Below are positions 1,526 to 6,978 of a stretch of 45,773 nucleotides of DNA, in pieces. A program made the translations under genes and the position numbers. Positions within the stretch are counted from its first letter, which is position 1, and each line of letters opens with the position of its first letter. The notes beneath the pieces are model-generated. The model ran no database searches. It was not told the DNA's origin and saw nothing but the letters and a program-made list of their open reading frames with translations. The stretch spans positions 1 through 45,773 of the forward strand of contig DATGEL010000006.1 in assembly GCA_035310145.1 (NCBI GenBank), written 5' to 3'. The stretch is from Dehalococcoidia bacterium. Lineage in GTDB: Bacteria > Chloroflexota > Dehalococcoidia > CAUJGQ01.

Positions 1526-2338
1526 ATGCCGGAGCACCTGTTGAGCCAGCTCGGAAAGGCGCTGGTCGATGGCTCGCTCACCGATGAAGCGCTGCTCGCC
1601 GAAACGGCGGCACAGCCGGTAGTCTCCATCCTGCCCGACGCCAATGTCGTCAAGATCGGTGGACAGAGCTTTATCGATCGCGGCCGGGCGGCGGTTTTCC
1701 CCCTGTTGGACGAGCTGGTCGAGAACCTGCCGCGGCACAAGCTGATCATCGGCACCGGCGCCGGCACGCGGGCGCGCCACGCCTACAGCGTCGGGCTGGA
1801 CCTGGGCATGCCCACGGGCGTGCTCAGCATCCTCGGCACCTTCGTGAGCATGCAGAACGCCCGTATGCTGCACTATCTGCTGGCGAAGCACGGCATTCCC
1901 TTCATCGAGCCGGCGCAGTTCCCGCAACTGCCGCTCTACCTCGAAGAGCGGCGGGCGGCAATCTTCTTCGGCATGCCGCCCTACATCTACTGGCAGCCAA
2001 ACCCCGCGGTGGGCCGCATACCCCCGAACCGCACCGATACCGGCGCTTACCTGGTCAGCGAAGTCTTCGGCGCCCGCGCGATGATCTATGTCAAGGACGA
2101 GGATGGGCTCTACACGGCCGACCCCAAGAAGGACCCCGCTGCCCGCTTCATTCCGCGCATCAGCGTGGCCGAGCTGGAGGCGCTGGACCTCGACGATGTG
2201 GTGGTGGAGCGCAGCGTGCTGGACTTGCTGAAGAGGGCGCAGCATCGCCGTTCGATTCAGGTGATCAACGGCCTCGTGCCGGGCAATCTGACGCGGGCGC
2301 TGGCCGGCGAACCGGTCGGCACGATCATCGAGGCCTGA
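1526..2338 (+). CDS. mosB: Molybdenum storage protein, beta-like subunit
   Basis: The ATG at 1526 follows AAGGAG at a good distance. The 270-residue product belongs to the amino-acid-kinase fold and closely resembles MosB of Azotobacter. Visible hallmarks are VVKIGGQSFIDRGRAAVFPL (about residues 36-55), the glycine-rich IIGTGAGTRARHAYSVGLDL, the MPPYIYW segment, a kinase-type KDEDGLYTADPK loop, and the C-terminal VINGLVPGNLTRALAGEPVG. In the known storage protein, alpha and beta subunits form a cage that uses ATP hydrolysis to pack molybdate or tungstate as polyoxometalate clusters. The alpha-like gene follows directly. Assignment to beta rests on the GGQSxIDRGRAAV and NLTRALAGE motifs. Confidence 0.88.
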   Translation: MPEHLLSQLGKALVDGSLTDEALLAETAAQPVVSILPDANVVKIGGQSFIDRGRAAVFPLLDELVENLPRHKLIIGTGAGTRARHAYSVGLDLGMPTGVLSILGTFVSMQNARMLHYLLAKHGIPFIEPAQFPQLPLYLEERRAAIFFGMPPYIYWQPNPAVGRIPPNRTDTGAYLVSEVFGARAMIYVKDEDGLYTADPKKDPAARFIPRISVAELEALDLDDVVVERSVLDLLKRAQHRRSIQVINGLVPGNLTRALAGEPVGTIIEA

Positions 2339-2362
2339 TCCGTGCAGGTGAAGGAGCCGGCC

Positions 2363-3220
2363 ATGACCAGCGGTGACTTCGCGGCCGTCAACGGCGCCGC
2401 CCTCGATCGGCGCCACCACGTGCAGTCGCTCCTGATGCGCGAGAGCCTGCTGGACAAGCAGGTGATGTCTGCCAGCGAGACGCCGGTGGTGCGCATGTTG
2501 CCCGCCTGCCATGTCATCAAGGTCGGCGGCCGCTCGATTCTGGACGGCGGTCGGGCGACGACCTATCCGCTGGTCGAGGCGATCGGCGCGGCGCTGGCCG
2601 AGCACCGGCTGATCATCGCCACGGGCGGCGGCGTGCGCAGCCGTCACGTGTTCTCGATCGGCATCGACCTGGGCCTGCCCACGGGTGTGCTGGCGCAGCT
2701 CGCCATCGCCGATGCGTTGGGCAACGCGCACATGCTCGGCACGCTGCTGGCGCCCTACGGCGTGGTCGCATCGCCGCCGGACCTGTTCGGCCATCTGCTG
2801 CCGCTGTTCGTGCGGGCCGTGCCCGGCATCATCTGCAACGGCGATCCGCCCTTCTCGCTCTGGGAACATCCGCCCGGCGTCGGCCGCATCCCTCCGCACC
2901 GCACCGATGCGGGCGCCTTTCTGCTGGCCGAGTGCTTCGGCTGCGCCACGATCACGCTGCTGAAGGACGTGGACGGCCTCTACGACCGCGACCCGCGGCA
3001 GCATGCGGACGCGGAGTTCATCCCCGCGATCACGGTTGCCGAGCTGCGCGAGCGGAAGCTGCCGACACTGCCCTTCGACCGCGTGCTGCTCGATCTGATC
3101 GAGCGGGCGCGGCTTGTGAAGCACGTGCAGATCGTCAACGGGCTCAAGCCGCAGCTGCTGGCGCCGGCCTTACGCGGCGAGCACGTGGGCACGATCGTGC
3201 GCAAGGATGCCACCGCCTGA
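2363..3220 (+). CDS. mosA: Molybdenum storage protein, alpha-like subunit
   Basis: I place the start at the ATG at 2363, six bases after AAGGAG; a GTG at 2342 would add seven residues but lies upstream of that ribosome-binding site. The 285-residue protein shares the amino-acid-kinase fold with its upstream neighbour but has the alpha-type signatures: HVIKVGGRSILDGGRA, GGGVRSRHVFSIGIDLGLP, GRIPPHRTDAGAFLLAE and ALRGEHVGTIVR near the C-terminus. The two genes are 24 bp apart and are surely co-transcribed, as expected for a hetero-oligomeric cage. The N-terminus is longer than in the Azotobacter protein. No nitrogenase gene is visible, so the stored metal may serve other molybdenum or tungsten enzymes. 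Confidence 0.86.
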   Translation: MTSGDFAAVNGAALDRRHHVQSLLMRESLLDKQVMSASETPVVRMLPACHVIKVGGRSILDGGRATTYPLVEAIGAALAEHRLIIATGGGVRSRHVFSIGIDLGLPTGVLAQLAIADALGNAHMLGTLLAPYGVVASPPDLFGHLLPLFVRAVPGIICNGDPPFSLWEHPPGVGRIPPHRTDAGAFLLAECFGCATITLLKDVDGLYDRDPRQHADAEFIPAITVAELRERKLPTLPFDRVLLDLIERARLVKHVQIVNGLKPQLLAPALRGEHVGTIVRKDATA

Positions 3221-3534
3221 CGAAACTACGCCTGCCGCCTGCGGCGTGGCCCGCTGGGATCGCGGCGCCGCGCGGGGCTGCTGGCAGAGCGGCTCTGCGG
3301 CCGGGGAGATGAGACAACTGCGCGAGCGTAATAGGTTTCAACGATATGAAACTGTTTGCTGCATGCAGGATAACCGCCGTCCACGCGCCGTTGATCTAGG
3401 TATGATTAGGAACTCACGGACGGTTTCCTGGCCGTCTCCGTGGTCCAGTTCCGGCTGAGCGTCGCCGTCATGTCCGCGGATGACCTTGTCAGCGGCGCGT
3501 GCTTCGCTCTGCTCTGCGCCGGAGGTTTCCCCCG
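3221..3534. other. Intergenic region before the response regulator
   Basis: This 314-bp gap contains no convincing gene. Its middle part (about 3325-3420) is less GC-rich than its surroundings, as promoter regions often are. It holds an inverted repeat at 3335-3352 and a TATGAT hexamer at 3401-3406 that could be a -10 element, although no good -35 element sits 16-18 bp upstream of it. The ribosome-binding site of the next gene (GGAGGT) is at 3521-3526. Confidence 0.5.
3335..3352. promoter_or_regulatory. Perfect inverted repeat, possible operator
   Basis: GTTTCA and TGAAAC are perfect six-base arms separated by ACGATA. The site lies in the less GC-rich part of the gap, about 180 bp before the response-regulator start and about 50 bp before a possible -10 element. 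The dyad has the size of a dimeric repressor or activator site. The binding protein is unknown. Confidence 0.35.
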
Positions 3535-4224
3535 ATGACCGCCCTGTCTTCCCCCGCCTGGTCCGTGCTGATCACCGACGACGATGACCTGTTGCGCCTC
3601 GGACTCAGCACCCTGCTCACGGAGCCGGCCGACTTCCGGGCAGTGGCAGAACCCCTCGGCCGCGCCACCGCCGCCGCACGCCGCCTGCAGCCCGACCTGA
3701 TCGTCGTGGATCCCCGCCGGCGGGACAGCCTCGACCTGGCGCTCGTGCGCGAGCTGGCGCGGATCAGCCCGCGCAGCCGTCTCTGCATCCACACCACCGT
3801 CTTCACGCCCGCGATCTTCCTCGAATCCCTGCTCGCGGGCGCCGACGCCTACCTGATCAAGGGGAACCTGGAGGGGGCGGGGCTGCGGCAGACGCTGGCG
3901 CTGCTGACACGGACGGGCATCGCGGCCGTCGATCAGACGATCCTCGACTACTTCCGTGCACAGCCGCTGGGCACACTGGCAGTCCGCGTGCGCGACGCCT
4001 GCGCGCGGCCGGTCACCGAGCGCGAGCGCGCCGTGCTCTCGCTGCTGGCCGAGGGGCTCACCGAGAAAGACATCGCCGCACGGCTCGGCATCCGGCGCAC
4101 GACGGTCGGCAGTCATGCCCACAACCTGCTCATCAAGCTCGGGGCGGAGAACGCCGTCCAGCTCGGCATCCGCGCGGTCGAACAGGGGTTGCTTGCCCCC
4201 GCCGCGCTCGCGATGCCGGCATAA
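3535..4224 (+). CDS. NarL/FixJ-type response regulator with LuxR HTH
   Basis: GGAGGT eight bases upstream fixes the start at the ATG at 3535, giving 229 residues; an upstream in-frame ATG at 3499 has no such site. The N-terminal receiver domain keeps the acidic cluster (ITDDDD), the phospho-acceptor aspartate (LIVVD), the switch threonine (HTTVF) and the conserved lysine (AYLIKGN), so it should be phosphorylatable. The C-terminal LuxR helix-turn-helix runs from TERERAVLSLLAEGLTEKDI through RRTTVGSHAHNLLIKLGAEN. No histidine kinase is adjacent, so it is an orphan here. It is the first gene before the small repeat-protein cluster on the same strand. Curli expression in enterobacteria is controlled by CsgD, also a LuxR-type regulator, but this parallel is only suggestive. 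Confidence 0.88.
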   Translation: MTALSSPAWSVLITDDDDLLRLGLSTLLTEPADFRAVAEPLGRATAAARRLQPDLIVVDPRRRDSLDLALVRELARISPRSRLCIHTTVFTPAIFLESLLAGADAYLIKGNLEGAGLRQTLALLTRTGIAAVDQTILDYFRAQPLGTLAVRVRDACARPVTERERAVLSLLAEGLTEKDIAARLGIRRTTVGSHAHNLLIKLGAENAVQLGIRAVEQGLLAPAALAMPA

Positions 4225-4705
4225 GCATCGGCAGAGGACGAACGGCGACTCGTCATATGTTGAGACGGCGACCCCCGTGAATGCCGATAGACGGGCGCCA
4301 TGCCAGGGGCGATGCTGTTGACACAGGCCGGGGGGCGCGGCGGCGAAGACGCCGGCCAGCGGGCCGCCCGCAGCCACGGTGGCGGAGAACGCCATCGCCG
4401 CCAGAGAGGTGCACAGACCAGGGCGCCTGGGGCACGCTTCCTCAGCGAACGCGCCCACGCCGCCATTCAGAATCGACTCAGCATTCACCTGGCACGCAGA
4501 TCAGAGCGGGAACGCCGGTACGGCCGCTGTAACACGGCACGGCACGGCGCAGCCCCGCACGGCGAACCGGGCGACGCCGCGCTCCGCAAGGAAACGGCGG
4601 CGCCTACCCAGATCGTGTCATCACGGTCCTGCCGCGGAGGACCGAGAGACAGCAATACGGCACGACCCCAGTACCCCATCTTCCCCAGTATTGAGGAGCT
4701 TGGAA
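4225..4705. other. Intergenic region and leader of the small repeat-protein genes
   Basis: These 481 bp hold no gene I can support on either strand; the open frames crossing it have arginine- and proline-rich composition typical of GC-rich noise. A palindrome at 4625-4643 (GGTCCT, 7-base loop, AGGACC) could fold in the leader RNA about 60 bases before the start of the first small gene. The ribosome-binding site for that gene (GAGG at 4693-4696) ends the region. Confidence 0.5.
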
Positions 4706-4885
4706 ATGAACTTCGTCGCACTCGGGCAGCTAAACGCCGCCGCCCTGAACCTGGGCAGCCAGACGAACGCTGCCGGCATCGGCCAGGGGCCGGCCGGCGT
4801 GAACGTGGCCCTGGTGGGCCAGGCGAACCTCGCGCTCGCCAACGGCGGCAGCCAGTCGAACACCGCGCTGATCGTCCAGATCTAG
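4706..4885 (+). CDS. Small Q/N-repeat protein, copy 1 (curlin-like repeats)
   Basis: The ATG at 4706 follows a GAGGAG site at 4693-4698; the frame is open further upstream but that part has no protein-like character. The 59-residue product contains two copies, 31 residues apart, of Q-x-N-x-A-x2-N-x-G-S-Q-x-N-x-A-x-I-x-Q (residues 8-27 and 39-58). The N-x-A-x3-Q part equals the core of curlin amyloid repeats. The next gene encodes a 59-residue paralogue identical at 46 positions. Over the 19 codons of an identical block (residues 15-33) I count five synonymous and no amino-acid-changing differences, strong evidence of real, selected coding. There is no signal peptide, cysteine or aromatic-rich core. 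Function is unknown; a beta-stacked fibril or filament subunit is an inference. Confidence 0.8.
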   Translation: MNFVALGQLNAAALNLGSQTNAAGIGQGPAGVNVALVGQANLALANGGSQSNTALIVQI

Positions 4886-4988
4886 GACACCTCCATGCCC
4901 GCTGCCGGCGTACCTCGGCGAGCGCCGGGCGCTGGCCGGCACGGGCCCATACCTACCAGAACCCACGACGAAAACGAGGAGCTTCAAC

Positions 4989-5168
4989 GTGAACACCGTG
5001 AATCTCGCGCAGTTCAACTTCGCCGCCCTGAACCTGGGCAGCCAGACGAACGCGGCCGGTATCGGCCAGGGCCCCGCCGGCGTCAACACGGCCAATGTGC
5101 TGCAGGTGAACGCCGCTTTCCGCAACGGCGGCAGCCAGTCGAACACCGCGCTGATCGTCCAGGTCTAG
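4989..5168 (+). CDS. Small Q/N-repeat protein, copy 2 (curlin-like repeats)
   Basis: The start is a GTG at 4989 preceded by GAGGAGCTTC, nearly the same leader as copy 1 (GAGGAGCTTG), so the initiation region was duplicated too. The 59-residue protein aligns to copy 1 without gaps (46/59 identical) and keeps both repeat units (Q8-Q27 and Q39-Q58). Differences concentrate at the x positions of the repeat, such as residues 36, 38, 40, 42, 44 and 45, while Q, N, G and S of the scaffold are fixed. This is what one expects if the scaffold forms stacked ladders and the x positions face outward. No secretion signal is visible. It lies 103 bp after copy 1 on the same strand. Confidence 0.8.
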   Translation: MNTVNLAQFNFAALNLGSQTNAAGIGQGPAGVNTANVLQVNAAFRNGGSQSNTALIVQV

Positions 5169-5443
5169 GCCAGCCGCGCCGCGCCGCCGGAGGCCGGCAT
5201 CGCCCCGGCGGCGCGACGCCGTGCGGGCGCGGCGGACCGCGAAACATCTGCCGATGTACGCGGTCGCCGCGCCCGACGACCAGGCAGCGTCGCTTCGCAG
5301 AGCAACCAACCGCGCCGCCGGCCGGCTGGCGTGGTTGTTCCCGTGCCGCGCCACCGGCGCGGCGCATTCGTCTCCCGCCGGCGGGCGTCGGCGCCACCCG
5401 GCTCGACCGACGCCGGCGCAGCAACCGACCGAGGAGAGCGGCT

Positions 5444-5584
5444 ATGATCACTTTCGCGCCGACCATTGTCTTCGCTCCAGCGATTTCCAGCAACTTCGCG
5501 GTCGCCTTCCAGGCGAACGTCGCCCTGTTCTCGCTGGGACCGCAGACCAACACTCTGAGCATCACGCAGGTCGCAGGTCACTGA
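5444..5584 (+). CDS. Small Q/N-repeat protein, copy 3 (single repeat unit)
   Basis: The ATG at 5444 is preceded by GAGGAG at 5431-5436. The 46-residue product starts with a hydrophobic, threonine- and proline-containing stretch (MITFAPTIVFAPAISSNF) and ends with one repeat unit: Q23-x-N25-x-A27, G32-P-Q34-x-N36, I40-x-Q42. The spacing between these residues (2, 2, 5, 2, 2, 4, 2) is the same as in the two longer paralogues, although serine is replaced by proline and one alanine by leucine. It may be a capping or nucleating variant of the same assembly, but that is inference. It is separated from copy 2 by 275 bp without another supported gene. Confidence 0.65.
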   Translation: MITFAPTIVFAPAISSNFAVAFQANVALFSLGPQTNTLSITQVAGH

Positions 5585-5633: not shown

Positions 5634-5819
5634 ATGACCAACGCGTTGTCGGGACATGCCGCGCGGCTCGTTCGCTGGCTGCTGCGCGTCGCTCTGCCGG
5701 ACGGCAGCGGCGCACGCAACCGTCGAGCAGGCCCGCGGCTTGTTGGCCTGCCGGCCGAGCTGTTCGGCTCCGCCGCGCCGGGTGCAGCAGGGCCAGGGAA
5801 CGGGTGGCCGCATGAGTAG
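5634..5819 (+). CDS. Possible small protein, uncertain
   Basis: A 61-codon frame starts at an ATG with a weak GGGGCGG leader and ends eight bases inside the next gene, an overlap often seen in coupled genes. The product has one moderately hydrophobic, arginine-flanked segment near the start (HAARLVRWLLRVAL) and a glycine/proline-rich tail. It resembles no family I know. In such GC-rich DNA a frame of this length can occur by chance, so the overlap is the main argument for it. Confidence 0.3.
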   Translation: MTNALSGHAARLVRWLLRVALPDGSGARNRRAGPRLVGLPAELFGSAAPGAAGPGNGWPHE

Positions 5820-6483
5820 CGCGATCCTCGGCGTGATCTCCCTGGCTGCGCTGATCGCGGCCGTCGCGGCGATCGGCGGTTGCGCCGTCCTGGCGGTGCG
5901 TTGTGCGCGGTTGATGCGGCGGACGCGGAGCGAGGCCGCCCGTCCGAGCGAACCCTGCCACCATGCCGCGCCGCCCCTGGTGGTCGGCATTCTGAACCCA
6001 CCGCTGCTGCCGCACGCCGAGCGCCTGCCGCTGCACCTCTCCAACATCGGCAGCAGCCCGGCGCTGCAGGTCGAGGCTGTCCTGAGCTGGGGAAACGCGC
6101 GCTTCGGCCTCGCCGATGGAGCGCGGCCATACATTCCGCTGGACAGCGTGTGGGAGTGCGAGTTGCTGCGCACTTCCGCTAGGGCGACGGACGGGCCAGA
6201 GACCGGGGCGCCGCTGAGCTGCCTGGTCACCTTTCACGATATGTTTCATCGCCGCTTCGCCGCCGTCAGCGTCTACTCGATCAGCGCCGAACGCGGCCTC
6301 TGCCTGGAGCGCGTCGACGTCGAGACGCCCGAGGACCAGGAGGACGGCGGCGGCGAGTCCCTCGAGACGGTGCTCGGCCGCCGGCGCGCGGCGTGGTCGG
6401 CGCCGCCACGCCCGGCAGTCCGTCTCGCGCCGGTACGCGGCGCCGCGTTTGAGCAAAGTCGGATCGTGGCCCTCGATGTGTAG
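5812..6483 (+). CDS. Membrane-anchored protein of unknown function
   Basis: The 223-residue product starts with one strong hydrophobic helix (about residues 4-30, ILGVISLAALIAAVAAIGG...AVLAV) followed by a basic stretch (RCARLMRRTR), predicting an N-terminal anchor with the remainder on the cytoplasmic side or, less likely, outside. Residues 52-145 look beta-rich (PLHLSNIGSSPALQVEAVLS), a style seen in small beta-sandwich domains in which 'N-x-G-x-x-x-A' marks a turn. The C-terminal 50 residues are acidic, then arginine/proline-rich and probably disordered. I do not recognise the family. Its place between the Q/N-repeat genes and a lipoprotein makes it a candidate anchor or assembly partner. 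Confidence 0.6.
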   Translation: MSSAILGVISLAALIAAVAAIGGCAVLAVRCARLMRRTRSEAARPSEPCHHAAPPLVVGILNPPLLPHAERLPLHLSNIGSSPALQVEAVLSWGNARFGLADGARPYIPLDSVWECELLRTSARATDGPETGAPLSCLVTFHDMFHRRFAAVSVYSISAERGLCLERVDVETPEDQEDGGGESLETVLGRRRAAWSAPPRPAVRLAPVRGAAFEQSRIVALDV

Positions 6484-6576: not shown

Positions 6577-6978
6577 ATGCGTCGACCCTGGATCCTGTTT
6601 ACCGGTCTCTCTCTGTTGCTGTCCGGGCTGGCGGCGTGCGCTTGCCCGCGCGTATACGCCGAGCCTGCTCCCGACGCGGCCTATTACATCGTGGTGCAGC
6701 CCGGAGGCACAGGCGGCGGCCAGATCGAACTGCTGCAGGTGAACGACGGCAACACGCTGATCAGCCTGCAAAGCGGCGTCACGGCCCGTGTCGAATGCAC
6801 GCGCTACGCGAACGCCGCCGATGCCGCCGCGGCGGCGGCGCTGCGCTACCGCGACGCCACCTGGACCGTGGAACTCGCACCGGACGCGCTGCACGCCCTG
6901 CTCGCCGCCGCCGGGATCGCGGACGATGTGACGAGCCTGCTGCCGCCCGTGGCCGATGCCGATCTCTGCACGCCGTGA
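6577..6978 (+). CDS. Small putative lipoprotein
   Basis: GGGGAGG six bases upstream selects the ATG at 6577 over an in-frame GTG at 6541. The 133-residue product has a lipoprotein signal peptide: a basic start (MRRPW), a hydrophobic core (LFTGLSLLLSG) and a lipobox L-A-A-C with the lipidated cysteine at residue 21. The mature part begins with a proline-rich linker and contains YYIVVQPGGTGGGQIELLQV and an alanine-rich helix near residues 80-95. No known domain is apparent. As the last gene on this strand before a bidirectional terminator, it probably ends the transcription unit that includes the small repeat proteins. Confidence 0.65.
   Translation: MRRPWILFTGLSLLLSGLAACACPRVYAEPAPDAAYYIVVQPGGTGGGQIELLQVNDGNTLISLQSGVTARVECTRYANAADAAAAAALRYRDATWTVELAPDALHALLAAAGIADDVTSLLPPVADADLCTP

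Follow-up and report, generated by a model that had tools for sequence, protein, structure and literature searches.

Small Curlin-Like Repeat Proteins at Two Loci of a Dehalococcoidia Genome: A Candidate Family of Minimal β-Arch Subunits

Introduction

Whether a protein of 59 residues that carries only two short repeat units can be the building block of an amyloid-type filament is the question raised by a cluster of three small genes in the genome of a Dehalococcoidia bacterium. The window analyzed here is the whole stretch of 45,773 nucleotides that contains this cluster, i.e., contig C6 of a genome of 5.3 Mb in 148 contigs with an estimated completeness of 99.8%; the features described here from position 1526 of the window onward lie on its forward (+) strand. 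A preliminary description of the window had reported three tiny proteins sharing a glutamine- and asparagine-bearing unit reminiscent of curlin, considered them to be under selection and proposed that they could form a new minimal filament family. The system with which they have to be compared is well described: a survey covering thousands of CsgA homologues defined the curlin repeat as a pair of half-motifs, a and b, each of the form N-$-Psi-$-Psi-$-Q, with the side chains of N, Psi, and Q directed inward and those of the residues noted $ directed outward (PMC10192328).

The First Gene Cluster and Its Surroundings

The three genes were found at the positions and with the lengths initially reported. 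Gene A (4706..4885) codes for 59 aa from an ATG start, gene B (4989..5168) codes for a 59-aa paralogue, 78% identical to A, from a GTG start, and gene C (5444..5584) codes for 46 aa. An AGGAG ribosome-binding site can be read directly upstream of A (4694..4698), B (4977..4981), and C (5432..5436), at 7–8 bases from the start codon; A, B, and C are genuine small genes, each preceded by a Shine-Dalgarno site. The DNA similarity between A and B (197 nt, 81%) extends from the ribosome-binding site to a few bases beyond the stop codon, limits that are as expected for duplicated genes. The five 20-residue units counted previously are present: A and B contribute two each and C a single one. Relative to the consensus proposed for them, C shows three deviations, with S in place of N, P in place of S, and L in place of A.

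A GC-rich hairpin with 15-nt arms (93% complementary) and without a T run lies directly after B (5176..5219) and could possibly act as an attenuator or terminator stem. A scan for sigma-70 promoters and terminators gave no match above chance, and an Rfam scan gave no match. A gene coding for a response regulator with a receiver domain and a LuxR-type helix-turn-helix (3535..4224), which belongs to a large paralogous family, ends 481 bp upstream of A, a position that makes it a candidate regulator of the cluster. Farther upstream, two adjacent genes of the amino-acid-kinase fold (1526-3220) match the subunits of the molybdenum storage protein (first gene, beta subunit, E 1e-93; second gene, beta subunit, 9e-70, and alpha subunit, 2e-61), a pair that suggests a putative molybdenum/tungsten storage cage in this organism. 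Downstream of C, a gene at 5812-6483 codes for a protein of 223 aa whose N-terminus bears a hydrophobic segment and which matches no family; it separates the cluster from the gene of a secreted 133-aa protein (6577..6978) endowed with a Sec-type N-terminus.

A Second Locus with a Shared Secreted Neighbor

A search of the host's own genome with protein A revealed a second cluster on contig C69 (E 9e-7). The preliminary description had overlooked this locus, together with the number of half-motifs per long protein and the near-total absence of charge discussed below. The C69 cluster comprises one copy cut by the start of the contig, the intact 61-aa proteins D and E, the 48-aa protein F, and the 79-aa protein G. 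Since the cut copy (L009, positions 1-126) duplicates part of E (471-656), the assembly probably broke inside a longer tandem array, and near-identical copies are present on C69. The proteins of the two loci are about 50% identical and the spacing grammar of their motifs is kept at both; outside these two loci, a profile of the unit found nothing below E 0.2 in the genome.

The secreted 133-aa protein encoded beside the first cluster has a relative of 141 aa beside the C69 cluster (54% identical, E 5.5e-33). As this protein accompanies both clusters, the duplicated unit is a small gene set and not a single gene, and co-location makes the 133/141-aa protein a possible accessory part. Searches of the phylum sample and of viral contigs returned no convincing relative of this partner, and the class genomes yielded two weak matches. 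That it could be a curlin-bearing nucleator was also considered; its heptads, NTLISLQ and NTMQIVQ, are not significant, and the idea remains speculation.

Several other features were observed around the second cluster. Just after the 48-aa gene, at about 1132-1205 of L009 (C69), the arms of a perfect inverted repeat of 17 nt (ATGGTTCCAAAACCCGC ... GCGGGTTTTGGAACCAT) enclose about 40 nt, a structure that may represent either the stem of a terminator or a small mobile element. The cluster also includes a 59-aa cysteine-containing protein (748-927) and a 124-aa protein with a weak match to a bacterial Ig-like domain (Big_1; 1739-2113), both of them without an assigned family, and it is directly followed by a gene coding for a 526-aa protein with a C-terminal CAP domain (2717-4297; E 1e-10).

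Composition and Export Signals

The seven full-length proteins, A to G, contain no K, E, or C, a single D, and two R. In A, all of D, E, K, R, and H are absent, and B has one charged residue. Q and N together account for 13–27% of the residues of each protein and the mean hydropathy (GRAVY) is positive for all seven. The earlier statement that the small proteins lack a signal peptide agrees with inspection of their sequences: none of the seven has a Sec-like N-terminus, no K or R lies near the N-terminus, N-terminal hydropathy is low, and no in-frame upstream signal precedes the small genes at either locus. The secreted neighbor, inspected in the same way, does show a Sec-like N-terminus.

The Curlin Half-Motif Grammar

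The likeness of half of the unit to the curlin core, noted from the start, proved to be more extensive than initially thought, each long protein holding four half-motifs rather than two. In A, these are NFVALGQ (a1, 4709..4729), NAAGIGQ (b1, 4766..4786), NVALVGQ (a2, 4802..4822), and NTALIVQ (b2, 4859..4879), starting at residues 2, 21, 33, and 52. In B, NTVNLAQ (a1, 4992..5012), NAAGIGQ (b1, 5049..5069), NTANVLQ (a2, 5085..5105), and NTALIVQ (b2, 5142..5162) start at the same four residues, and the single unit of C holds NFAVAFQ (a, 5492..5512) and NTLSITQ (b, 5549..5569) at residues 17 and 36. The half-motifs are spaced 19/12/19 in A and B and 18/12/18 in D and E. In F and G the unit is kept, with the N of a and the Q of b lost.

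Two kinds of control bear on this pattern. Shuffled sequences are expected to contain about 0.3 half-motifs, and four occur together in 0 to 2 of 20,000 of them, the count allowing G at the first Psi position, as is needed for both b motifs of D and E. Independently of this rule, a position matrix was trained on 160 heptads from three curlin-type ORFs of a Xanthobacteraceae record from another phylum (L039), used both as a positive control and as a training set. In A, B, and D, this matrix picks exactly the four half-motif positions, and in E it picks three of the four (z about 5; none of 3000 shuffles scores as well). Among about 170 loci, a rule of three half-motifs within 70 aa matches only the A–G family and the L039 curlins. 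A matrix scan of the ORFs of the whole window, in which composition effects dominate, is excluded from the evidence. The L039 record itself contains three adjacent large curlin-type ORFs in tandem, of 373, 644, and 472 aa as measured from stop to stop or to the end of the locus.

At the level of sequence, the resemblance to curlin is thus real and quantitative. Compared with the curlin repeat, motif a is extended by -x-N-x-A and motif b is preceded by G-[S/T/V/P]-Q-x, and the Q, N, A, G, Q, and N of these added elements are invariant across ten aligned units. On the simplest reading, the unit would be a curlin arch lengthened by one extra N/Q pair.

Selection on One Face of the Repeats

The claim that the long copies are under selection was originally derived from a block in which A and B differ by five synonymous and no amino-acid-changing substitutions. 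This block was recovered (codons 12–33), but taken over the whole gene 7 codons differ synonymously and 14 by a replacement, the start codon being counted among the latter, and the NG86 estimates (dN 0.20, dS 0.25) give a ratio of about 0.8. Taken alone, the gene-wide ratio carries little weight; it does not support selection and goes some way toward the ratio near 1 that had been proposed as counter-evidence. What does support selection is the placement of the changes relative to the inward and outward positions of the predicted strands.

With strand limits set after inspection of the sequences and the inward/outward rule taken from the literature (PMC10192328), 10 of the 10 outward residues of strands a1 and a2 differ between A and B, as against 0 of the 12 inward residues, and no residue differs in strands b1 and b2, the five synonymous changes of codons 12–33 notwithstanding. 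Summed over the four strands, this pair has changed at none of its 22 inward residues and at 10 of its 18 outward ones (Fisher 5e-5); when the D/E pair is added, the counts become 0 of 44 and 13 of 36 (Fisher 7e-6). Between the two loci, 18% of the inward and 79% of the outward comparisons differ. The outward strand residues are mainly T, V, G, S, L, and A, and 1 of 54 is chargeable (a His). Such a pattern is strong evidence that the A/B frame is translated and that the products would form β strands with one buried face. Since all the outward residues of the a face have been replaced and the b face is frozen, the comparison also points to an a face that is free or diversified, and to a b face that may be engaged in contacts.

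Taxonomic Distribution

The proposal of a filament family had been made dependent on finding the Q/N ladder in other genomes, and no such homologue turned up in Chloroflexota or in the other collections searched. The A–G proteins have no family match in Pfam, PHROGs, NCBIfam, or PADLOC and no relative among PDB sequences. No relative was found in plasmids and phages (tblastn), viral contigs, or genome contigs, nor among 400 genomes of the phylum (225 genera), 393 genomes of the class (226 genera), and 158 genomes of another class; the cluster is also absent from the one other genome of the same family (n = 1). Weak profile matches in other Chloroflexota were translated and proved to be unrelated proteins, and the matches listed by a genome-wide DNA pattern scan were mostly an unrelated Ruminococcus gene and chance matches, together with one real curlin locus (L039). 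A partial literature search brought up no earlier account of proteins of this kind. The family is real and taxonomically narrow; as the collections searched cover about half of known species, it may nevertheless be wider than it appears. The existence of a second, diverged locus in this genome, combined with 0 inward as against 13 outward changes, indicates that the ladder is constrained and outweighs both the missing homologues and the dN/dS ratio of about 0.8.

Proposed Assembly and Alternative Explanations

We favor, by a narrow lean beyond even chances, the view that A, B, and C represent a new family of minimal curlin-type β-arch subunits that stack into cross-β filaments. In the proposed unit, strand a would direct N, Psi, Psi, Q, N, and A inward, an arc of about six residues containing G-S/T would follow, and strand b would direct Q, N, Psi, Psi, and Q inward. 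Across the arch, the pairing would be that of curlin (N opposite Q, Psi opposite Psi, and Q opposite N), plus an additional N/Q pair. With a 5-residue connector, a unit would span about 30–31 residues and two units would form a two-rung solenoid, whose open ends and near absence of charge would permit head-to-tail stacking into homo- or heteropolymers with continuous N and Q ladders. The one-unit proteins of C69 with a broken ladder (48 and 79 aa) could be caps or starters, the secreted 133/141-aa protein could serve as its surface anchor or nucleator, and control could fall to the LuxR-type response regulator encoded upstream of A. Such filaments might equally well be intracellular or exported by some route, and could serve as a matrix, a surface coat, or an internal scaffold. 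Several points count against them. AlphaFold2, given A in a two-row alignment with B, predicts helices of low confidence (pLDDT 58, pTM 0.33), a weak result that nonetheless does not favor the arch; the pLDDT obtained for the secreted protein is 44, and both models are too poor to inform on the fold. The length of the unit and its arc are unlike those of curlin, a solenoid of only two rungs may be unstable, neither a signal peptide nor an exporter or chaperone is known for the family, and the other genomes searched hold no relative. A more specific version, in which a Csg-independent filament would be made of two-rung, charge-free subunits with a fixed inward ladder and b face, an outward a face diversified between paralogues, and a conserved secreted partner, is tentative and on balance rather doubtful; diversification of the outward a face would perhaps set the specificity of mixed subunits or the surface chemistry.

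The same β arches might instead build small soluble dimers or oligomers, or a sheet coating the surface as a hydrophobic coat or a ligand-binding face, with no amyloid filament at all. Alternating conservation denotes a one-faced strand pattern that is compatible with an absence of fibers, the outward T, V, G, S, L, and A differ from the polar or charged outside of most curli, and the positive GRAVY of all seven proteins fits as well; however, in-register N/Q ladders over one or two rungs with open ends favor end-to-end stacking and the four-motif match is specific to a known class of amyloid subunits, so that we regard this explanation as unlikely. A young, lineage-restricted repeat family whose function is not settled, and which duplication and gene conversion maintain, would account for the lack of relatives among the 400 phylum, 393 class, and one other same-family genomes, for the near-identical copies on C69 and for the gene-wide dN/dS of about 0.8. 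It is hard to reconcile with changes at 0 of 44 inward as against 13 of 36 outward positions, or with two loci that at about 50% identity both keep the grammar and the shared partner gene, and is quite unlikely.

Two further explanations assign the small proteins to other classes altogether. Amyloid signaling motifs of the HET-s or BASS type, which would template an effector or a receptor inside the cell, are suggested by the two-rung size of HET-s, close to that of A and B (PMC4055769; PMC4518210), and by the lack of signal peptides expected of intracellular partners. Such motifs sit on a receptor and an effector, yet the unit profile matches no other protein of the genome at E <0.2 and none of the neighbors (0) matches a defense family; this makes a signaling role very improbable. 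Still less probable, and barely credible in our judgment, are RiPP-like precursors whose repetitive cores would be substrates of an enzyme encoded nearby. The tiny tandem genes and a SAM methyltransferase encoded at 689-1489 would be in keeping with them, but that gene lies 3.2 kb away, beyond the storage-protein genes, the Pfam-scanned neighbors of both clusters include no maturase family (e.g., radical SAM, YcaO, or LanM), and the units are conserved over the whole chain, the division into leader and core being absent.

Comparison with Known Systems

Chaplins and other small surface amyloids are tiny, multi-copy, hydrophobic proteins that self-assemble at the surface. Compared by description only, chaplins carry Sec signals and have a sequence unlike that of the A–G proteins.

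HET-s consists of two 21-residue pseudo-repeats that form two rungs (PMC4055769; PMC4518210). The A–G family shares with the HET-s/BASS systems two pseudo-repeats, a two-rung β-solenoid amyloid of similar length (here a predicted one), and the lack of a signal peptide. It differs in that a matching receptor or effector is absent from the genome, the genes stand alone in tandem, and the inward grammar is unlike that of HET-s.

Curli are the closest system and yet a distinct one. The family does not match the Pfam curlin repeat (PF07012), and the CsgG exporter was not found in this genome (99.8% complete by estimate), which bears out the earlier remark that known curli partners are lacking. The host phylum is absent from those named for curli (PMC3521004; PMC12822426). 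The curli unit measures about 23 residues as against about 30–31 here, and its a-to-b spacing is 11, with a 4-residue X-G-X-X arc, as against 18–19 here (12 from b to a); the additional length corresponds to the elements Q-x-N-x-A and G-S-Q-x, which lie between a and b and which curlin lacks. Curli subunits have a reported 3–62 repeats and most have a polar or charged outside (PMC10192328), whereas the A–G proteins have one or two units and a nearly chargeless outward set; curli subunits carry a Sec signal peptide and by inspection A–G carry none. By the tests made, namely PF07012, CsgG, signal peptide, unit length, and unit number, the A–G family is not curli. With CsgA and CsgB it nevertheless shares the paired a/b half-motifs N-$-Psi-$-Psi-$-Q, the tandem paralogues, the richness in N and Q and, in the predicted fold, N opposite Q and Psi opposite Psi across the arch.

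The alternating change between A and B is in itself an unusually clean case of structure read from two sequences, and the filament claim can be tested directly and cheaply since such short peptides are easy to synthesize. If stacking is true, these proteins (about 6 kDa, 1–2 units) would be the smallest natural curlin-type subunits known to us, and they would provide a test of whether the N/Q half-motif is by itself enough for a functional amyloid, in the absence of chaperones, an exporter, and charged gatekeeper residues. Stacking would also point to an origin, or a persistence, of curlin-like arches outside the Csg system.
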